From Actinomycetota bacterium (GTDB lineage Bacteria; Actinomycetota; Acidimicrobiia; Acidimicrobiales; CADCSY01), in the NCBI GenBank assembly GCA_004366205.1, contig SIRW01000109.1, positions 1 through 50,665 on the forward strand: 50,665 nt of DNA, read 5' to 3'. The notes under the pieces are model-generated. The model was given only the letters and a program-made list of their open reading frames with translations. It made no database searches and was not told where the DNA came from. Both the position numbers and the translations under genes were made by a program. Numbering within the stretch: the first letter of the stretch is position 1; every line of letters starts with the position of its first letter. Positions 14,142 to 36,720 of this stretch are shown here, one piece after another.

Positions 14142-15169
14142 GCACAGCCGGCTGGAGCGGCAGGGCGGCGGGACCGCCGATCCTCGAGGTCGAGGACCTG
14201 CACGTCACGTTCTCGACCCCCGACGGGCCCGTGCATGCCGTGCGGGGCGTCGACCTCGAGCTGCGGGCCCACGAGTCGCTCGGCATCGTGGGCGAGTCGG
14301 GCTCGGGCAAGTCGGTGACGATGCTCGCCGTCATGGGCCTGCTCGCCCGCAACGCCACCGTCACCGGGTCGATCCGCTTCGAGGGCGAGGAGCTCGTCGG
14401 CCGTACGAACAAGCAGCTGCGCCCCTACCGGGGGGAGAAGCTGTCGATGATCTTCCAGGACCCGATGACCTCGCTCAACCCCGTGCTGTCGATCGGCTAC
14501 CAGATCGCCGAGATCGTGCGGGCCCACCGGGACGTGAGCCGCGAGGACGCGCAGGCCCGGGCCGTCGAGCTGCTCGAGCTCGTCGGCATCCCCAACGCCC
14601 GGGAGCGGGTCAAGCAGTACCCGCACGAGTTCTCGGGCGGCATGCGCCAGCGGGCGATGATCGCCCTCGCCATCGCCAACGACCCCGCCGTGCTCATCGC
14701 CGACGAGCCCACCACGGCCCTCGACGTCACGATCCAGGCCCAGGTGCTCGAGGTGATCCAGCGGGTGCAGGAGGTAACCGGCACGGCGCTGGTGCTCATC
14801 ACCCACGACCTCGGCATCGTCGCCCGCACCGTCGATCGCGTCATGGTCATGTACGCGGGCCGTCCCGCCGAGAAGGGGGAGGTGCTCAGCACCTTCGAGG
14901 CGCCCCGCCACCCCTACACGCTCGGGTTGCTGCGCTCGCTGCCCCGCCTGCACCTGCGGGGCATGGAGCTCGAGCCCATCCCCGGGAACCCGCCGAGCAT
15001 GCTGGCGCCGCCGCCGGGCTGCCCGTTCCACCCACGCTGCGCCCACTCCCAGGGGCGCGAGCGCTGCCGCACCGAGGTGCCCGAGCTGCGGCTCATCGAG
15101 ACCAACGGGCAGATGGCGGCTTGCCACTTCGCCGAGGAGCTCCGCGACGAGGAGGTGATCCCCTCGTGA
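14138..15169 (+). CDS. ABC transporter ATP-binding protein, DppD/OppD type
   Basis: This cytoplasmic ATPase energises the importer. The 343 residues contain Walker A GESGSGKS (near residue 51), Q-loop [10 protein letters not shown], signature FSGGMRQR, Walker B VLIADEP and switch His in ITHDLG. The C-terminal oligopeptide-transporter domain has the Cys pattern [16 protein letters not shown], which binds an iron-sulfur cluster in some homologues. It starts at GTG 14138, overlapping the permease stop (GTGA). Confidence 0.95.
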
Positions 15170-16239
15170 GCGAGCAGCCCGCCGGCGCAGAAGCCGTCGC
15201 GACCAGCGACGGCGAGGCCCGCATCGAGGTGCCGGGCCCGCCACCGGGGGTCAGCGCCGCCCCGCTCGTCGAGGTTCGGGAGCTCGTCAAGCACTTCCCG
15301 GTGCGCGGCGGAGGCGTGCTGCGCCGCTTGGTCGGCGAGGTGCAGGCCGTTTCGCGCGTCTCGTTCGACCTGTACCCGAAGGCGACGCTCGGGCTGGTGG
15401 GCGAGTCGGGCTCGGGCAAGTCGACCACGGGCCGCTGCATCCTGCGGCTGCACGAGCCCACGTCGGGGTCGGTGCGCTTCGAGGGGCGCGAGGTCACGAC
15501 CCTGCGGCGGCGCGACCTGCGCACGCTGCGGCGGGAGATGCAGATCGTCTTCCAGGACCCCTACGCCAGCCTCGACCCGCGCATGACCGTGAGCTCGATC
15601 GTGGGCGAGGCGCTGGTGATCCACGGTCGCACCGAGGGCCGCAAGGACCGGGTGCGCGAGCTGCTCGACCTTGTCGGCCTGAACCCTGAGCACGGCAACC
15701 GCTACCCCCACGAGTTCTCGGGCGGGCAGCGGCAGCGCATCGGCATCGCCCGGGCCCTCGCGCTCGACCCCCGGGTGCTGATCCTCGACGAGCCCGTGTC
15801 CGCCCTCGACGTGTCGATCCAGGCCGGCGTCATCAACCTGCTCGAGCGGTTGCAGGACGAGCTCGACCTCAGCTACCTGTTCGTCGCCCACGACCTGTCC
15901 GTGGTGCGCCACGCGTCTGACCAGGTGGCGGTGATGTACCTCGGCAAGATCGTCGAGATCGCCGACACCGACGCCCTGTACCAGTGGCCCGCCCACCCCT
16001 ACACCCAGGCGCTGCTGTCGGCCGTGCCCGTGCCCGACCCCCGCCGTGAGCGGGAGCGACGCCGCATCGTGCTGACCGGTGACATCCCGAGCCCCATCAA
16101 CCCGCCGTCGGGCTGCCGGTTCCGCACCCGGTGCTGGAAGGCGCAGGAGATCTGCGCCCAGGTCGAGCCCGACCTCGTCGACCGGGGCCAGGGCCACCCG
16201 GTGGCCTGCCACTTCGCCGAGACCGTCGACGTGCTGTGA
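15166..16239 (+). CDS. ABC transporter ATP-binding protein, DppF/OppF type
   Basis: This partner ATPase has 357 residues. It has Walker [11 protein letters not shown]-loop [11 protein letters not shown], signature FSGGQRQR, Walker B VLILDEP and switch His in VAHDLS. The C-terminal domain ends with a Cys pattern ([14 protein letters not shown]). The first 35 residues are low-complexity. It starts as GTGA over the DppD-type stop and ends as GTGA over the next gene, so five genes are a tight translational chain. Confidence 0.95.
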
Positions 16240-17855
16240 CCCCGACGCGACGCCCGGGCTCCCAGCTGTCGCCCACCCTGCGGCGGATCGTGGTGGTGGC
16301 GCCGCTCGTCGTGCTGCTCGCGGCGGTCATCGTCCTGCTGGTCGGCGTGGGGGACGGCGACGGCGACGGCCCACCGCCAGGAGGCGAGGCCTTCCCGACG
16401 ACGACGACCGACCCCGACGCCGTCGTTGGGGGCGTGCTCCGCCTCGGCATCGAGAGCCCCGCCACGCTCGACCCCGCCCGAGCCCGGCCCGTGCCGATCT
16501 CCGAGCCGCTGGTGGCCGGCCTGCTGTTCGACGGGCTCACCGGCATCGACGCCACCTCCGGGGAGGTGGTGCCCGCGCTCGCGGAGTGGTGGGACCACGA
16601 GGAGCACCGTGTGTGGCGGTTCCGGTTGCGGCAGGGCGTCACCTTCCACGACGGATCGCTGATCACCGCCGGCGACGTGGTGTTCTCGCTGGAGCGGGTG
16701 ATCGACGACCCCGAGTCGCCCAGCGCTCTCGCACTCGAGATCGTGGCCGGCGTCGAGGCCGAGACCGACCGCCACGTCCGCATCGAGCTGCTCGAGCCCC
16801 TCGCCGACTTCCCGAGCGTGCTGACGAACCCCGCCCTCGGGATCGTGCCCCAGGCGCTCGTGGAGGCCGACCCGTCCGGGTTCGCGGCGGCGCCGGTGGG
16901 CTCGGGCCCGCTCATGATCGACGAGGTCGCCGACGACGTGCTCCGGCTGGTCCCGGCCGGCGGGGTCGACGCCTACCTCGAGGGCGTCGAGCTGCACCGC
17001 TTCGCCGACGTCGCCGCCGCCTACGCCGCGTTCGAGCGCGAGCTGGTCGATTGGAGCCTGGTGCCCGCCGAGCGCGCCGCCGAGGCCGCCGAACGCCACG
17101 GCGACGACGGGTACCGGCCCTATCAAGCCGTGCTCTTCTACGGCATCGACGTCGACGCCCAGTACCTCGCCGACGCCCGGTTCCGGGAGGCGATCGTGCG
17201 GGCGGTGAACGCGGGGCGGGTGAGCGAGCTCGCGTACGAGGGCACGCTGCTGCACCTCACGGGGCCGGTCCCCGCCGGCGTGCCGGGCCACCAGCCTGAC
17301 GCGTGCAAGGAGCGCTGCGGGCACCACCAGGCCCGGGCCCGGCAGCTCGTCGCCGCCGCCTTCCCGGACGGCGCGCCCGTGGTCGAGATCGCCTTCGACG
17401 AGGGGGGGCGCCAGGACGCGGTGGCCGCCGCCTTGCAGGACATGCTCCAGGCCGTCGACATCCCCGTGCGCCTCCGACCGATGCCGTTCGAGGAGTACAA
17501 GACGTTCGTGGCCAGCGGGCAGCAGCAGGTGTTCCGGCTGGGGTGGACGGGCTCGTACCCGTCGCCCGACGCCTACCTCGTGCCGCTGTTCCGCACCGGC
17601 TCGCCCGACAACGTCACGTCGCTCAGCAAGCCCGAGGCCGACCAGCGGTTGGCGCTCGCCCGCACCAGCGATGACCCCGACGAGCGTCGCGAGCTCTACC
17701 GTCAGGCCGAGCGCCAGGTGATGGCCGAGCTGCCGATCATCCCGATCGGCCAGTTCCAGATCCTCTCGGTGGCCCGCCCCGAGGTGCGGGGCCTGGTCAT
17801 GGCCATCGACGGCACGTTCGATCCCACCGCCGTCTGGCTCGCGGGCGACCGCTGA
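16236..17855 (+). CDS. Second family 5 substrate-binding protein, membrane-anchored
   Basis: This 539-residue SBP_bac_5 protein closes the importer operon. It has a single N-terminal hydrophobic helix (about residues 17-38) followed by an Asp/Gly-rich linker, and it lacks a lipobox Cys. It is therefore probably held by an uncleaved anchor, unlike the lipoprotein at 10372. The binding-protein core is recognisable ([32 protein letters not shown]). Two binding proteins for one transporter suggest two ligand ranges or a signalling role. GTG 16236 overlaps the ATPase stop. Confidence 0.88.
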
Positions 17856-29803: not shown

Positions 29804-31411
29804 TCACAGCCGTGGCAGCTGCTGGGCACGGCCGATCAGCGCGTGCAGGGGGTCGCCGGTCGAGCGGAGCCGATCCAGCACGGTGCGGACGGTCCAGCGG
29901 TCGGGGGTGAGGTCCGGGTCGTCGAGCTCGTCCCAGGCGATCGGCACCGACACGGGCGCGCCCGGCGCCGGACGGGCGCTGAACGGGGCCACGAGCGTCT
30001 TGTTGATGGCGTTCTGCGTGAAGTCCAGCCGGGCGAGGCCGTTGCGGCGCCGCTTCTCCCACTCCCAGCTCACCAGCTCGGGCACGGTGCGCCCGACCGC
30101 CCGCGAGACCTTCTCGACCCAGTCCCGGGTCTCGGAGAAGCTGTAGCGGGGCGTCACCGGGACCCAGATCTGGATGCCTCGCTTGCCGGTGACCTTCGGC
30201 ATCCCGACCACGCCCAGGTGCTCGAGGGCGGTGCGGTAGAGGCGGGCGAGCACGATCACGTCGTCGAAGGAGGAGCCCGTGCCCGGGTCGATGTCGATCA
30301 GCGCCCAGGTCGGGCGCCGCACGTCGGGCAGCCGTGCGGTCCACGGGTGCAGCTCGATGCTGGCGTGGTTCGCCATCCACACGAGCGCCGGCACGCTGTC
30401 GACCACCGCGTACCACTCGGTCTCGCCGGGCTCCACGTCGGGTCGCTGCCAGCGGGTGAGCCACCCGGGCGCGTAGGCGGGCACCTCCTTGTGCCAGAAG
30501 CCCTTCGCCTCCACGCCGTCGGGGAAGCGGTGCTGGTTCACGGGTCGGTCGTAGAGGTAGGGGAGCAGGAACGGAGCGATCTCGGCGTGGTACCGGATGA
30601 GGTCCCGCTTGGTGACCGGCGCCTCCCCGTCCCGCCCCGGGAACAGCACCTTGTCGAGGTTGGTCACGCGCACCTCCCGCCCGGCCACCTGCCACGTGCC
30701 GTCCCGGTCGATCCCGTCCAGCGCGGCGAGCTCGTCGGGGGTGGGCGGCTCCCAGGTGGGCGGGGCCGGCACGGCGAGGGCGGTGGCCGCGCTGGCGGCG
30801 GGGGCCTCGCCGTCCCACGTCGCCTCGGGGTCGGCGGCCACCTCCTCGTTGGTGCGCCCGCTCTTGACCGATCGGGGGTGGTCCTCCGGGTCCCAGCCGG
30901 GCCGGGCGTGCTCGTCGTGCTTGTGCAGCAGCAGCCACTGCCGGTCGCCCGACCCGCCCCGGCCCCGGTCGCCGGTGCGGACCAGCACGAAGCGGCCGGC
31001 GAGCTTCTCGCCGTCGAGGTCGAAGTGCAGGCTGCCTGCGTCGATGGCGGCGGCCGGGTCGTCCGTGCCGGCCGGCCGCCACGTCCCCCAGTCCCACACG
31101 ATCACGTCGCCGCCGCCGTACTCGCCCTTGGGGATGACGCCCTCGAAGTCGAAGTACTCGAGGGGATGGTCCTCGACGTGCACGGCCAGCTGCCGGCGCT
31201 CCGGATCGAGCGTGGGGCCCTTGGGGACGGCCCAGCTCACCAGCACGCCGTCGACCTCCAGGCGCAAGTCGTAGTGGAGCCGGGTGGCGCGGTGGCGCTG
31301 GACGACGAACCGGTTCCCGCCCTCGGGGCGGGGAGCGCCCGCGGGCTCCGGCGTGCGGGCGAAGTCCCGCTTGCGGCGGTAGGTCCTCAGGCGCGGGTCC
31401 TGCTCGGCCAT
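29804..31411 (-). CDS. LigD-like protein: 3'-phosphoesterase plus polymerase domains, no ligase
   Basis: This 535-residue protein of bacterial non-homologous end joining starts with the phosphoesterase (PE) domain: HRATRLHYDLRLEVDG and HPLEYFDFEGVIPKGEYGGG carry the metal-binding His, Asp and Glu. A 60-residue linker leads to the primase-polymerase domain (LigD_Pol), with catalytic DxD in LIDIDPG and the TGKRGIQIWVP segment. The ATP-dependent ligase domain present in full LigD is missing, and no ligase or ku gene is in the window. The PE-Pol order differs from mycobacterial Pol-PE-Lig. A GATACT hexamer lies a few bases before ATG 31411 with no ribosome binding site. Confidence 0.9.
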   Translation of the reverse strand: MAEQDPRLRTYRRKRDFARTPEPAGAPRPEGGNRFVVQRHRATRLHYDLRLEVDGVLVSWAVPKGPTLDPERRQLAVHVEDHPLEYFDFEGVIPKGEYGGGDVIVWDWGTWRPAGTDDPAAAIDAGSLHFDLDGEKLAGRFVLVRTGDRGRGGSGDRQWLLLHKHDEHARPGWDPEDHPRSVKSGRTNEEVAADPEATWDGEAPAASAATALAVPAPPTWEPPTPDELAALDGIDRDGTWQVAGREVRVTNLDKVLFPGRDGEAPVTKRDLIRYHAEIAPFLLPYLYDRPVNQHRFPDGVEAKGFWHKEVPAYAPGWLTRWQRPDVEPGETEWYAVVDSVPALVWMANHASIELHPWTARLPDVRRPTWALIDIDPGTGSSFDDVIVLARLYRTALEHLGVVGMPKVTGKRGIQIWVPVTPRYSFSETRDWVEKVSRAVGRTVPELVSWEWEKRRRNGLARLDFTQNAINKTLVAPFSARPAPGAPVSVPIAWDELDDPDLTPDRWTVRTVLDRLRSTGDPLHALIGRAQQLPRL

Positions 31412-31879: not shown

Positions 31880-32692
31880 TCAGTGGTCGTGGGCGCAACC
31901 GTCGCCGTGGCTGCCCTCGATGCCGGCGAAGGGGCCGCAGGGATGGTCCACGAGCCACACGTGCAGCATCGGCGGCGTGCCCCGGAACTGGCCCCGGGCG
32001 CAGGAGCCGTCGGGGCCGGTCGTGCCGACCACGCGGATGCCCTCCCAGCACAGGTTCTGGTGGTCGTGCCACACGGTGAGGGGCCCGGCGACGTCGGGCA
32101 CGTCGGCCATGGTGTAGCCCGGCGGCAGGATGTACATGGCCGACACGATCTCCTTCGACCCGTCGGGGTGGACCTGCATGACGATGGACTCGACCCGCTC
32201 GGGGTCGAGGACGGCGCCGTCGCTCAGATGGCCGAGGTGCACGAAGTGCTCCCACCCGGTGACGCCGTCGCCGATGGACACGTAGCCGGCCGCCCGCAGC
32301 GACGCCTCGTCGCTGTAGCGGGTGAGGGCGGCCCGGGTGCGTGCGATCAGGTCCTCGGCCGCCGCCCGCTGCTCGGGGGTCACCCGGGGGTCGTCGAGCG
32401 AGATGACGGGGCCGTCGGGTGCAGGGGCGGGCTCGTCCGCTGCGGGCATGGCGCCGGCATGGCCGTCGTGGCTGGCGCCGTCGTCGTGCTCGGCGCCGGA
32501 GGCCGGCCCGGCGCCCTCCGCCGCGCTTGCCACGGCGGCGTGGGCGGCGTGGTCGGTCGCGACGGCGCCGGCGTCGCCGCCGTCAGGCGCCAGGAGCGCG
32601 GCACCGGCGACGACCAGAGCGGTGACGGCGGCCATCAGGGCGAGGGCGGCCGGCCTGGGCCGGCGCGGGGCGGTGGGCGACGCGGGCTGCAT
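31880..32692 (-). CDS. Secreted His-rich protein of unknown function
   Basis: This 270-residue protein has an N-terminal signal or anchor (about residues 15-37), then an Ala/Gly/His/Asp-rich linker with many His residues (DHAAHAAVA, EHDDGASHDGHAG). A folded domain follows (ARTRAALTRYSDEASLRAAG, GWEHFVHLGHL, VWHDHQNLCWEGIRVVG, HVWLVDHPCGPFAGIEG) and the C-terminus is HGDGCAHDH. The conserved His and Cys suggest metal binding outside the membrane, but I do not know the family. It starts 31 bases after the hydrogenase small-subunit gene on the same strand and is probably co-transcribed. ATG 32692 was chosen because it precedes the signal sequence directly. Confidence 0.75.
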   Translation of the reverse strand: MQPASPTAPRRPRPAALALMAAVTALVVAGAALLAPDGGDAGAVATDHAAHAAVASAAEGAGPASGAEHDDGASHDGHAGAMPAADEPAPAPDGPVISLDDPRVTPEQRAAAEDLIARTRAALTRYSDEASLRAAGYVSIGDGVTGWEHFVHLGHLSDGAVLDPERVESIVMQVHPDGSKEIVSAMYILPPGYTMADVPDVAGPLTVWHDHQNLCWEGIRVVGTTGPDGSCARGQFRGTPPMLHVWLVDHPCGPFAGIEGSHGDGCAHDH

Positions 32693-32723
32693 GGGTTCCC
32701 CCGAACTCGACGTTCGAGCCAGG

Positions 32724-33908
32724 CTACCCGGTGGGGTCGGGGTCGGCGCGCCGGTGGCGCTCGCCGTCGAGCTCGACCGGGACTGCGCCCGACGTCGCCG
32801 TGCCGCCACCGTCGCGCCACGGTGGGACGTAGCCCGAGCGCAGCTCGTCGCCCGGCACGCGCCACCGGGGCTCGTCGTCGAAGATGCCCTCGCTCAGCCG
32901 GCGCAGCCCGCGGATGACCGTGCCGTAGATGCCACTGCCGGCCGTGGAGACCGCCGCCCCCGGTGGCGGGTCCATGAAGGGCTGGAAGCGGTCGGGGAAG
33001 CCGGGCATGGTGCAGGCGATGCAGATCCCGCCGACGTTCGGGCAGCCGCCGATGCCGTTGATCCATCCCCGCTTGGGCACGTTGCAGTGCACGACCGGGC
33101 CCCAGCACCCCAGCTTCACCACGCACTCCGGCTCGCCGTGGGCGCGGGCGAAGATGCCCTCCTCGTAGTAGCCGGCCCGGTCGCAGCCCTGGTGGGCGGT
33201 GGGCCCGAACTGCCACTCGGGGCGAAGGGCGCCGTCGAGCGGGATCATCGGCGCCTGGCCGCTCAGCTGGTACAGGAGGTACAGGATGACCTCGGACACG
33301 TTGTCGGGCTGGATCGGGCAGCCCGGCACGCACACCACGGGCACGCCGGCGCGCGAGGTCCAGTCCCACCCCAGGTAGTCGGGCAGACCCATGGCGCCGG
33401 TGGGGTTGTTCTGCATGGCGGGGATGCCCCCATAGGTGGCGCAGGTGCCGACGGCAAGGACCGCGAGGGCGCGGGGCGCGAGCCGGTCGATCCAGTCGCA
33501 GGTGGGGATGGGCTGGCCCGTCTCCGGGTCGCTGCCGAACCCGGCCCAGCAGCCCTCGTCCTTGATGCGCTCGTTGGGCACGGAACCCTCCACGACGAGC
33601 ACAAAGGGGCCGAGCTCGTCGCGGACCGCCCGGTGGAACGCCTCCAGGAAGTCGTCGCTGCCGCCCGCCGGGCCCGTCGGGAAGGCGAGGATCGGCCAGT
33701 GCACCTCCAGCCTGGGGACGTCGGGGAACGCCCCGCCGACGAGCTCCTCGACGCTTGGGTTGGTGGCGGCCGTGAGCGCGACCGAGTCACCGTCGCAGCT
33801 CAGCCCGGCGTTGACCCACAGGAGGTGCAGCGTCCCGTCGGGGGCGACGGGCGGCGGCGCCTCGCTGGGTGCTTCGACCGGCGCCTCGGCGGGTGCGGCG
33901 GGTTCCAT
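32724..33908 (-). CDS. hhyS: [NiFe]-hydrogenase small subunit, Hhy (group 1h, actinobacterial) type
   Basis: This 394-residue electron-transfer subunit carries iron-sulfur clusters. The first cluster motif is C-D-G-D (Cys38, Asp41) in NAGLSCDGDSVAL, where Asp replaces the fourth Cys, as reported for the proximal cluster of actinobacterial-type high-affinity hydrogenases. Later Cys motifs are GTCATYGG, VPGCPIQPDN, QGCDRAGYY, KLGCWGPVVHC and GGCPNVGGICIACTMPGFPD. No Tat signal is present, which fits the Hhy type. The first 23 residues are a Pro/Ala/Glu-rich extension. The large subunit, normally the next gene, is not in the window; a secreted His-rich protein follows instead. ATG 33908 is used. 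Confidence 0.92.
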   Translation of the reverse strand: MEPAAPAEAPVEAPSEAPPPVAPDGTLHLLWVNAGLSCDGDSVALTAATNPSVEELVGGAFPDVPRLEVHWPILAFPTGPAGGSDDFLEAFHRAVRDELGPFVLVVEGSVPNERIKDEGCWAGFGSDPETGQPIPTCDWIDRLAPRALAVLAVGTCATYGGIPAMQNNPTGAMGLPDYLGWDWTSRAGVPVVCVPGCPIQPDNVSEVILYLLYQLSGQAPMIPLDGALRPEWQFGPTAHQGCDRAGYYEEGIFARAHGEPECVVKLGCWGPVVHCNVPKRGWINGIGGCPNVGGICIACTMPGFPDRFQPFMDPPPGAAVSTAGSGIYGTVIRGLRRLSEGIFDDEPRWRVPGDELRSGYVPPWRDGGGTATSGAVPVELDGERHRRADPDPTG

Positions 33909-33961: not shown

Positions 33962-35797
33962 GTGGAGCCCAGAGGCACGACGAACCCTCCGACGGTCGAT
34001 GAGGACCTGCTCGTCGCCGTCGTGGAGTCGGCGCCCGACGGCATCGTGATCGTCGACGGTGACGGCGCGATCCGCCTCGTGAACAGCCAGCTCGAGTCGA
34101 TGTTCGGCTACGAGCGCCACGAGCTCGTCGGCCGGCCCGTCGAGGTGCTCCTGCCCGAGCGCTACCACGCCGCTCACGTCGACCACCGGCGGGGCTACCA
34201 GGCGGCGCCCCGCACCCGGCCGATGGGTTCGGGCCTGGACCTGGCCGGCCGGCGCCGGGACGGCAGCGAGCTGCCCGTCGACGTCAGCCTCAGCCCGCTG
34301 ACGCACCGCGGCGAGCCGCTGGTGATCGCCTTGGTCCGCGACGTCACGGAGCGCCGCATGGTGCAGCAGCGCCTGGCCCACCTGGCGGCCATCGTGTCGT
34401 ACTCCGACGACGCCATCTACTCGGTGGGCCGGGACGGGGCGGTCACCAGCTGGAACCGGGCCGCGGCCCGCCTCTACGGCGTCCCGATCGACGAGATCCT
34501 CGGCGAGCCCGTGCACACGCTGGCCGCGCCCCACCGGGAGGACGAGCAGCGCCTGGTGCTCGCCCGGGTGCTGGCGGGGGAGCGGGTCGAGCGGCTCGAG
34601 ATCGAGCACCGCCGGCGGGACGGCCTGCCGATCACCGTGTCGCTGACCGTGTCGCCGATCGTGGACGCCGCGGGCGAGATCGTGGCGGCCTCGGTCATCG
34701 CCCGCGACATCACCGAGCAGCGTCTCGTCCAGGCGACCCTGACCGCGAGCGAAGCCCGGCTCCGCGAGAGCGAGCTGCTCGCCGAGATCGGCAGCTGGCT
34801 GTGGGACGTGGGCTCGGACGTGGTGCAGTGGTCCGAAGGCCTGCACGCCATCACCCAGGTCGCGCCCGAGAACTTCGACGGCGACCTCGCCGCCCACCTG
34901 TCGGTCGTGCACCCGAGCGACCGGGACGTGGTCGCGCGGGCTATGCGCTTCGCCGTCGAGCGGGGTGCCCGCTTCGAGCACGAGTTCCGCATCGTGCGGC
35001 CCGGGGGCGAGGAGCGGTGGGTGATCGCGCGCGGGGAGCCCGTGCACGCAGCCGCTGCCGTCGTCGCCCTGCAGGGGATCTTCCAGGACGTGACCGAGCG
35101 GCGGGCGGCCGAGCGCCTGAAGGACGACTTCCTCGCTACGGTCTCCCACGAGCTGCGCACACCGCTCACGGCCATCGTGGGGTTCTCGGACCTCCTCGCC
35201 CGCCAGGTGGGGAGCGACCTGGCCGGCGCCGTGCAGGCGGTGGTGCGCAACGCCCGCGAGATGGACCGCATGGTCAGCCGCCTGCTCGACTTCTCCCGGC
35301 TGCAGGCCGGCCGGGAGCACGTGGCTCCCGAGGCGCGGGACGCCCGGGAGGCGGTGGAGGACTGCCTGGCGCTGCTCCGGCCGGGGCTCGACGAGCACAC
35401 CGTCGCCAACCTGGTCCCCGACAACCTCGTCGTCGAGGTCGACACGGACGCCCTGCAACGCGTGCTCGGCAACCTCGTCGGCAACGCGGCCAAGTTCGCC
35501 CCGGCCGGCTCGACCATCGAGGTGGACGCCCGACCCGACGGGGATCGGGTCGTGTTCACCGTGGCGGACCGTGGACCGGGCCTGCCCGATGGCATCGTGG
35601 AGCGCGTGTTCGACCGCTTCTTCCAGGGACCCGATCAGCCCGCAGGCAAGCGGGGGACGGGCGTGGGCCTCTCGATCGTGCAGCGCTACGTCGAGTTGCA
35701 CGGCGGGCGGGTGTGGGCCGAGAACCGCCCCGGTGGCGGCGCCGTGTTCGCCTTCACCCTGCGTCGAGCGCCCGTCGGGGGCGGTGCCGCCCGATGA
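33962..35797 (+). CDS. Cytoplasmic three-PAS histidine kinase
   Basis: This 611-residue soluble kinase has PAS1 (about residues 15-130; ESAPDGIVIVDGDGAIRLVN), PAS2 (135-255; YSDDAIYSVGRDGAVTSWN) and PAS3 (265-380; LHAITQVAPENF). It then has HisKA with His396 in TVSHELRTPL and HATPase_c (NLVGNAAKF, DRGPGLP, GTGVGLSIV). There is no membrane segment, so it senses an internal cue. No response regulator is adjacent. GTG 33962 has GGAGG at 33949-33953. Its divergent arrangement with hhyS raises the possibility of control by redox or energy status. Confidence 0.9.
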   Translation: MEPRGTTNPPTVDEDLLVAVVESAPDGIVIVDGDGAIRLVNSQLESMFGYERHELVGRPVEVLLPERYHAAHVDHRRGYQAAPRTRPMGSGLDLAGRRRDGSELPVDVSLSPLTHRGEPLVIALVRDVTERRMVQQRLAHLAAIVSYSDDAIYSVGRDGAVTSWNRAAARLYGVPIDEILGEPVHTLAAPHREDEQRLVLARVLAGERVERLEIEHRRRDGLPITVSLTVSPIVDAAGEIVAASVIARDITEQRLVQATLTASEARLRESELLAEIGSWLWDVGSDVVQWSEGLHAITQVAPENFDGDLAAHLSVVHPSDRDVVARAMRFAVERGARFEHEFRIVRPGGEERWVIARGEPVHAAAAVVALQGIFQDVTERRAAERLKDDFLATVSHELRTPLTAIVGFSDLLARQVGSDLAGAVQAVVRNAREMDRMVSRLLDFSRLQAGREHVAPEARDAREAVEDCLALLRPGLDEHTVANLVPDNLVVEVDTDALQRVLGNLVGNAAKFAPAGSTIEVDARPDGDRVVFTVADRGPGLPDGIVERVFDRFFQGPDQPAGKRGTGVGLSIVQRYVELHGGRVWAENRPGGGAVFAFTLRRAPVGGGAAR

Positions 35798-35898
35798 TCG
35801 GCCGAGCGGTCCGCTGGCTCGTGCTCGTGGGGATCGCCTGGGGCGTGATCCACGTGCTGCCGAGCGTGGCCCGCTACCTCAGGATCCGGGAGCTGTAG
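35794..35898 (+). CDS. Tiny membrane protein, DUF6893-like
   Basis: This 34-residue protein has one membrane helix (about residues 8-25) and the C-terminal pattern LPSVARYLRIREL, which resembles small DUF6893-type proteins (LPDxxRYxRIR). ATG 35794 overlaps the kinase stop (ATGA), supporting real translation. It overlaps the convergent gene at 35879 by 20 bases. Function unknown. Confidence 0.6.
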   Translation: MIGRAVRWLVLVGIAWGVIHVLPSVARYLRIREL

Positions 35899-36160
35899 GG
35901 GCGCCGGGATCGTCGCCCCGGAGCAGCTTGCGGGCGCGGTCGAGCAGCTCGTCGACCCCGAGGTCGGCGTCACCGTCGCGGAGGCGCACGCTCAGCTCCT
36001 CGAAGGCGGCGGCCGCATGGGAGCGAACGGCGCCGAGCAGCTCTCGGAACTCCTGGGAGTCCCGCACGGTGCGGAGCGCCTCGAAGACCTCCTCGAGGCG
36101 TTCGCGACCGGCCCCCGCCCCGACCACGTAGCCCACCGCGAACGCCAGGATCACGCCCAT
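35879..36160 (-). CDS. Small membrane-anchored protein, YtxH-like layout
   Basis: This 93-residue protein has one N-terminal Gly/Ala/Val-rich helix (VILAFAVGYVVGAGAG) followed by a charged helical cytoplasmic part, as in YtxH-type small stress proteins. An ideal AGGAGG lies just upstream of ATG 36160. Function unknown. The end is convergent and overlapping with the tiny DUF6893-like gene. Confidence 0.75.
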   Translation of the reverse strand: MGVILAFAVGYVVGAGAGRERLEEVFEALRTVRDSQEFRELLGAVRSHAAAAFEELSVRLRDGDADLGVDELLDRARKLLRGDDPGAPTAPGS

Positions 36161-36183: not shown

Positions 36184-36720
36184 TTACCCGTCGGCGACGG
36201 GCCCGGCGTGGAGCTCGAGGACAACGGTCACGTCGGGGAAGATCCGCAGCATCAGCGCCGTCGGGGAGGGGATGCCGAACTCGCGGATGTCGAGCAGGTG
36301 CTCGCCCGTGACGACGACCGTGCCGTCCTCCTGGGCGGTCAGCTGGACGGTGCCCTCGGCGGGCTGGATCGACCCCGCGAGCTGGATCGTCCCAGCCACG
36401 GCGTAGCGGTTGATGGCGTCGAGGTGCCGGACGTCGGTGAGCTCGACCCGGGCCCGGGGGTGGCGACGCACGTTCAACCTGCGCTGCAGCTCGGCGTCGT
36501 ACACGCTGTTCCCGCACCGGAGGCGGGTCAGGTCCACCTCGACCCACGCCGCCACCGGGGCGGACGTGTCGACGATGCCATCCACGAGGAGCGCCCGGAC
36601 CTCGCCGTCGAGGCCGTCGGCGGCGAACGTGACGGGCCCGACGCTGGAGCGGGACCGCACCGCCAGCAGCGAGCGGTCGGGCAGGACCCGCAGGCGCGTG
36701 CCGGTGGGGGCGTCCTCCAC
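36184..36720 (-). CDS. YceI-like (lipocalin-fold) protein
   Basis: This 178-residue beta-rich protein matches the YceI layout: SLLAVRSRSSVGPVTFAADGLDGEV at the N-terminal strand pair and repeated strand motifs such as YAVAGTIQLAGS, with a terminal VTVVLELHAGPV. Family members bind isoprenoid or amide-type lipids. No signal peptide is seen, so this copy is probably cytoplasmic. The start GTG 36720 has no clear ribosome binding site; no better start lies upstream. Confidence 0.72.
   Translation of the reverse strand: MEDAPTGTRLRVLPDRSLLAVRSRSSVGPVTFAADGLDGEVRALLVDGIVDTSAPVAAWVEVDLTRLRCGNSVYDAELQRRLNVRRHPRARVELTDVRHLDAINRYAVAGTIQLAGSIQPAEGTVQLTAQEDGTVVVTGEHLLDIREFGIPSPTALMLRIFPDVTVVLELHAGPVADG

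Follow-up and report, generated by a model that had tools for sequence, protein, structure and literature searches.

The window, meaning the whole stretch of 50,665 nucleotides that was analysed, is the entire contig C103 of a draft genome of 3.44 Mb (119 contigs, completeness 100). The locus of interest consists of five genes.

31880 to 32692, minus strand: P2, a His-rich protein of 270 aa, predicted to be exported, 31 bases downstream of hhyS
32724 to 33908, minus strand: orphan HhyS, an intact group 1h-type [NiFe]-hydrogenase small subunit of 394 aa (from the ORF, Pfam, the PDB match and the ligands)
33962 to 35797, plus strand: a multi-PAS histidine kinase with HisKA and HATPase_c domains, transcribed divergently from hhyS at a distance of 53 bp from the hhyS start
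35879 to 36160, minus strand: a small ORF of 93 aa that begins MGVILAFAVGYVVGAGAG, with homologues within the hhy clusters of genomes G015, G038, G087, G162 and G225
36184 to 36720, minus strand: a protein with a YceI domain (PF04264); its closest relatives are encoded in hhy clusters, often as PadR fusions

Hydrogenase-linked genes extend upstream of hhyS through the PAS kinase, the small ORF and the YceI gene, a part of the locus that the original prediction had missed. Separately, the stretch 29804-31411(-) encodes a LigD-type protein with 3'-phosphoesterase and primase-polymerase domains, the ligase domain being absent from its Pfam match.

The 394-aa reading frame of hhyS was free of stops, and its product matched both small-subunit domains of Pfam (PF01058 and PF14720). 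The nearest solved structure was the HofK small subunit (5aa5, E 2e-150). Upon alignment with 5aa5, every Cys/His cluster ligand was found in place together with the motif C38-x-G-D41, which reads CDGD at the first cluster, and the character of a three-cluster small subunit is retained. These results bear out the original description of a complete small subunit with a Cys/Asp first-cluster motif. No Tat or Sec signal was found in the protein, whose N-terminus (MEPAAPAEAPVEAPSEAPPP) contains no twin-arginine motif. The orphan is like HofK (5aa5) and the actinobacterial high-affinity Hhy enzymes in its full-length homology, its ligand set with CxGD and its missing export signal, but differs from them in having no adjacent hhyL, in its longer N- and C-terminal tails, and in changes at 20 of 191 clade-invariant positions. 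Its structure was predicted with a mean pLDDT of 55, falling below 50 in the C-terminal half, and the model was set aside.

Hydrogenase small subunits are normally regarded as obligate partners, with their genes beside that of the large subunit. The large-subunit gene had been reported missing here, and tblastn across the window's 50.7 kb indeed gave no sign of hhyL (best match no better than E 0.08). A search of the window for hidden remnants of hhyL or hyp genes and a promoter scan also found nothing. HhyL, which a group 1h enzyme would have co-encoded, is thus absent from the window locus, and the only hhyL of the genome is on contig C102. We surveyed HhyS-type loci in 397 genomes of the order and in the best 80 of the genome contig matches. 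Wherever 1 kb or more of downstream DNA was available, hhyL or an equivalent adjoined the small-subunit gene, except in the window and at G020:C72. The window was the sole group 1h orphan among the surveyed loci, seen in one genome. We found no description of orphan hydrogenase small subunits in open-access papers, which is weak evidence of absence.

A complete Hhy system is available in trans to the orphan. Contig C102 of the window genome carries a second HhyS, about 58–60% identical to the orphan, with genes for HhyL, a NifU-domain protein (HhyE-like) and a DUF5947 protein immediately after it and those for SIS, HypE, HypD, two HypC and HypF before it. HypA, HypB and a HyaD-like protease are encoded on C96, which completes the maturation set (hypC/D/E/F on C102, hypA/hypB on C96). 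In M. smegmatis, Hhy activity requires HhyE (PMC6883350). In its stronger reading, put to a genome-wide check for hhyL and hyp genes, the original prediction mostly fails, because a complete Hhy cluster of the normal hhyS–hhyL–hyp kind is present on C102 with hypA/hypB on C96. A second hydrogenase cluster, Hox-like, is on C22.

We compared the window with intact hhy clusters of the order. At G015:C102 the genes run PadR-YceI(-), small ORF(-), PAS(+), SIS(-), SIS(-), hypE(-), hypF(-), hhyS(-), hhyL(-) and onward. In the window they run YceI(-), small ORF(-), PAS(+), hhyS(-), so that the four genes match G015:C102 in order and orientation. The window PAS kinase matches the PAS gene of G015; PAS-sensor genes occupy the equivalent place in the G015 cluster and lie near hhyS in G225. 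For the window YceI protein the best matches come from the hhy clusters of G015 and G038; the small ORF has its best match directly upstream of hhyS in G038, and in G015 its counterpart is beside the PAS gene. Relatives of the YceI, small-ORF and PAS genes were found at hhy or hyp loci in G038, G087, G162, G101, G225, G262, G031 and G055. One caveat is that in G004 this module sits on a contig stretch without hhyS, which indicates that it can move or persist alone. Compared with the clusters at G015:C102 and G038:C128, the window keeps the YceI–small ORF–(PAS)–hhyS order and orientations but is without SIS, hypE, hypF, hhyL, hhyE, hypC, hypD and the rest. Four shared genes in the order and orientation of G015 are best explained by a deletion of SIS–SIS–hypE–hypF together with a loss from hhyL onward. 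This comparison makes a stripped group 1h uptake-hydrogenase cluster the best reading of the locus, and the rearranged operon, one of two alternatives originally offered, is supported by the gene order.

YceI proteins, often PadR-fused, and a small ORF with a GYxxGA motif recur in hhy clusters of the order (L059:6441-7394 and 14761-15261; L060:1990-2499 and 15708-16874; also L168, L169, L170 and L171). We found no description in the literature of a role in H2 oxidation for either the YceI/PadR proteins of hhy clusters or the small GYxxGA ORF. In the hhy cluster of G014, a PAS–histidine kinase–receiver gene directly follows hhyL (L063:10867-12729(+)).

We then examined how the orphan sequence has changed. 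In the tree it fell within group 1h, joining clade A at an open fork (82/84) and separated from the outgroup (100/100). Its branch was long, at 0.97 where the median end branch measured 0.16, and its placement in clade A is not settled by the tree. At the 191 positions conserved in at least 98% of 91 clade A sequences, the orphan had 20 changes, compared with 0–3 in the clade A relatives shown and 29–38 in members of clade B, which have hhyL. Seventeen of the 20 changes introduced residues that other small subunits also carry; when the same 20 sites were given random single-base changes, the mean was 6.2 and the maximum 13 in 2000 trials. The orphan also kept 61 of the 62 positions that are invariant across all compared small subunits, with one changed. 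Its median dN/dS to relatives was 0.41 vs 0.19–0.31 for clade A genes of intact clusters, values that are rough given the high dS. The long branch and the higher dN/dS show weaker or changed constraint on the orphan. Its changes, judged from the alignment, follow the pattern left when selection keeps a small subunit working, not that of drift, although this pattern cannot date the loss of hhyL; the time since that loss is not measurable because the orphan is known from one genome. The orphan HhyS thus looks constrained, yet sits on a long branch.

A second, independent orphan small subunit was found in three species of the taxonomic family f10: G020 and G076, of one genus, and G113, of another.

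L229:8280-9410, plus strand: family f10 orphan small subunit
L230:8254-9363, plus strand: family f10 orphan small subunit
L255:8602-9789, minus strand: family f10 orphan small subunit

The f10 orphan gene is located between recA/spoVS and miaB-miaA-dapF-hflX, and a GGDEF-type signalling gene, of the PAS-GGDEF-EAL kind in G113, stands head-to-head with it. No large subunit was found within 14–18 kb of it, and each of the three genomes also has a canonical small/large pair. Pairwise dN/dS of the f10 orphans was 0.25–0.38 vs 0.03–0.09 for these species' canonical copies, with all ligands kept. The f10 locus resembles the window in its intact small subunit, the lack of a large subunit nearby, a complete cluster elsewhere in the genome and a PAS gene head-to-head. 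Unlike the window orphan, the f10 small subunit has a CxGC first motif, belongs not to group 1h but to another hydrogenase lineage, and is conserved in two genera. The dN/dS values and the kept ligands indicate that orphan small subunits can persist under purifying, though relaxed, selection, and this persistence makes a functional window orphan more likely.

Six residues were common only to the orphan and the C102 HhyS among the group 1h sequences compared (N50, A90, P163, N167, V207 and H257). P163 and N167 come just after C156, a first-cluster ligand, and in known structures of [NiFe] hydrogenases the first cluster faces the large subunit. The orphan and C102 shared eight rare residues exclusively, compared with five or fewer between the orphan and any other clade B sequence. 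Recent gene conversion with C102 hhyS was considered and rejected, as no stretch of raised DNA or codon identity was found between the two genes. With no sign of gene conversion, a common partner becomes a possible reason for the six shared residues, a suggestive but weak hint of one large subunit serving both. The hint is weak because the orphan and the C102 HhyS are both long branches, and the six residues could have arisen by homoplasy on these branches or could be retained ancestral states; all of the outgroup small subunits have P163.

The mechanism we prefer, though with less than even confidence, is that the orphan HhyS pairs in trans with the C102 HhyL. The ancestral order would have been YceI–small ORF–PAS sensor–SIS–SIS–hypE–hypF–hhyS–hhyL–hhyE and onward. 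Everything that lay between PAS sensor and hhyS would have dropped out of this order, along with all genes from hhyL onward. The divergent complete hhy cluster on C102, with hypA/hypB on C96, would then provide the large subunit and the maturation proteins, and the retained HhyS would pair with the C102 HhyL as its second small subunit, yielding an alternative HhyLS that differs in electron exit or in regulation. The downstream His-rich gene would be an unrelated neighbour. Much of this is ordinary: a rearranged hydrogenase cluster, a second complete one in the genome and an unrelated neighbour. What is unusual is that the small subunit is intact and constrained. Intact orphans would allow small-subunit exchange to be tested for altered electron exit or O2 tolerance, or the three-cluster module to be studied alone. 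They also make counts of small-subunit genes an unsafe measure of the number of hydrogenases in genomes.

Alternatively, hhyS may be a recently orphaned relict, the last, as yet undecayed and functionless piece of a cluster that was on its way out once the C102 cluster had taken over. We regard this as possible, though on the whole unlikely. The long branch and raised dN/dS would fit such a relict, as would its occurrence in a single genome, from whose locus most cluster genes are gone and in which a complete replacement cluster exists. Against it, the frame is unbroken, all ligands are kept and the substitutions are mostly to residues that other small subunits accept; moreover, the unrelated f10 orphan is conserved across two genera.

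The orphan might instead work as a stand-alone Fe-S protein, either a redox relay or a redox or gas sensor, possibly reporting to the divergent PAS histidine kinase. The closeness of that kinase (53 bp) and the equivalent head-to-head PAS-GGDEF-EAL signalling gene of f10 point this way, and a raised substitution rate would fit the loss of a large-subunit interface. However, some intact hhy clusters include PAS genes, so the neighbour may only be inherited, and the first-cluster ligands and their conserved surroundings have been retained; we consider this reading improbable. A broader version seems to us a doubtful generalisation, namely that small subunits of this order have repeatedly come free of the catalytic subunit and been retained next to PAS-type signalling genes as Fe-S proteins in their own right, with a redox or sensory role.

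An assembly or binning artefact joining hhyS to unrelated sequence might be suspected in a draft of 119 contigs, but it is very improbable, as the gene lies mid-contig in 50.7 kb of even composition and its upstream neighbours are typical of other hhy clusters.

The downstream protein P2 was confirmed as an exported-type His/Cys-rich product of 270 aa with no match in Pfam or NCBIfam. Its ORF has its own GGGGGA preceding the ATG. A single hydrophobic segment at the N-terminus of the protein is followed by 235 residues that include 16 His, and four Cys lie in the C-terminal third. AlphaFold gave a confident core (residues about 100–255), for which a fold search found no PDB match. In most relatives, the P2 domain reads as fused to a membrane part. 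The residues invariant in the alignment (A1) include H149, M186, W208-H209-x-H211 and M242-x-H244-V-W246, and they resemble a metal site, from which we infer a candidate metal-binding family. About a quarter of relatives have a P2 homologue; by count, 70 of the 397 genomes carry one, and only in the window does it stand directly beside hhyS. P2 has a widespread uncharacterised extracytoplasmic domain, with invariant WHxH and MxHVW motifs, and probably stands outside the hydrogenase system.

The original proposal of an electron carrier with a new His-rich partner did not hold up, since P2 was next to hhyS at no other HhyS locus and the linkage is absent in relatives. A complex of HhyS with P2, suggested by the shared strand and the 31-base spacing, is scarcely credible, as many relatives have the family but no hhyS with it and P2 is presumably extracytoplasmic (from its hydrophobic segment) while HhyS has no export signal; with predicted locations that differ, we rejected the partnership. 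In G236 a P2 homologue lies 7 kb from the hydrogenase, at the end of the cluster (L231:15393-15998(-)), a proximity that by a rough estimate would be about a one-in-ten chance event given the genomes that carry both. The small-subunit gene of G236 appears as two overlapping ORFs (L231:7438-8600(+)), possibly reflecting a frameshift.
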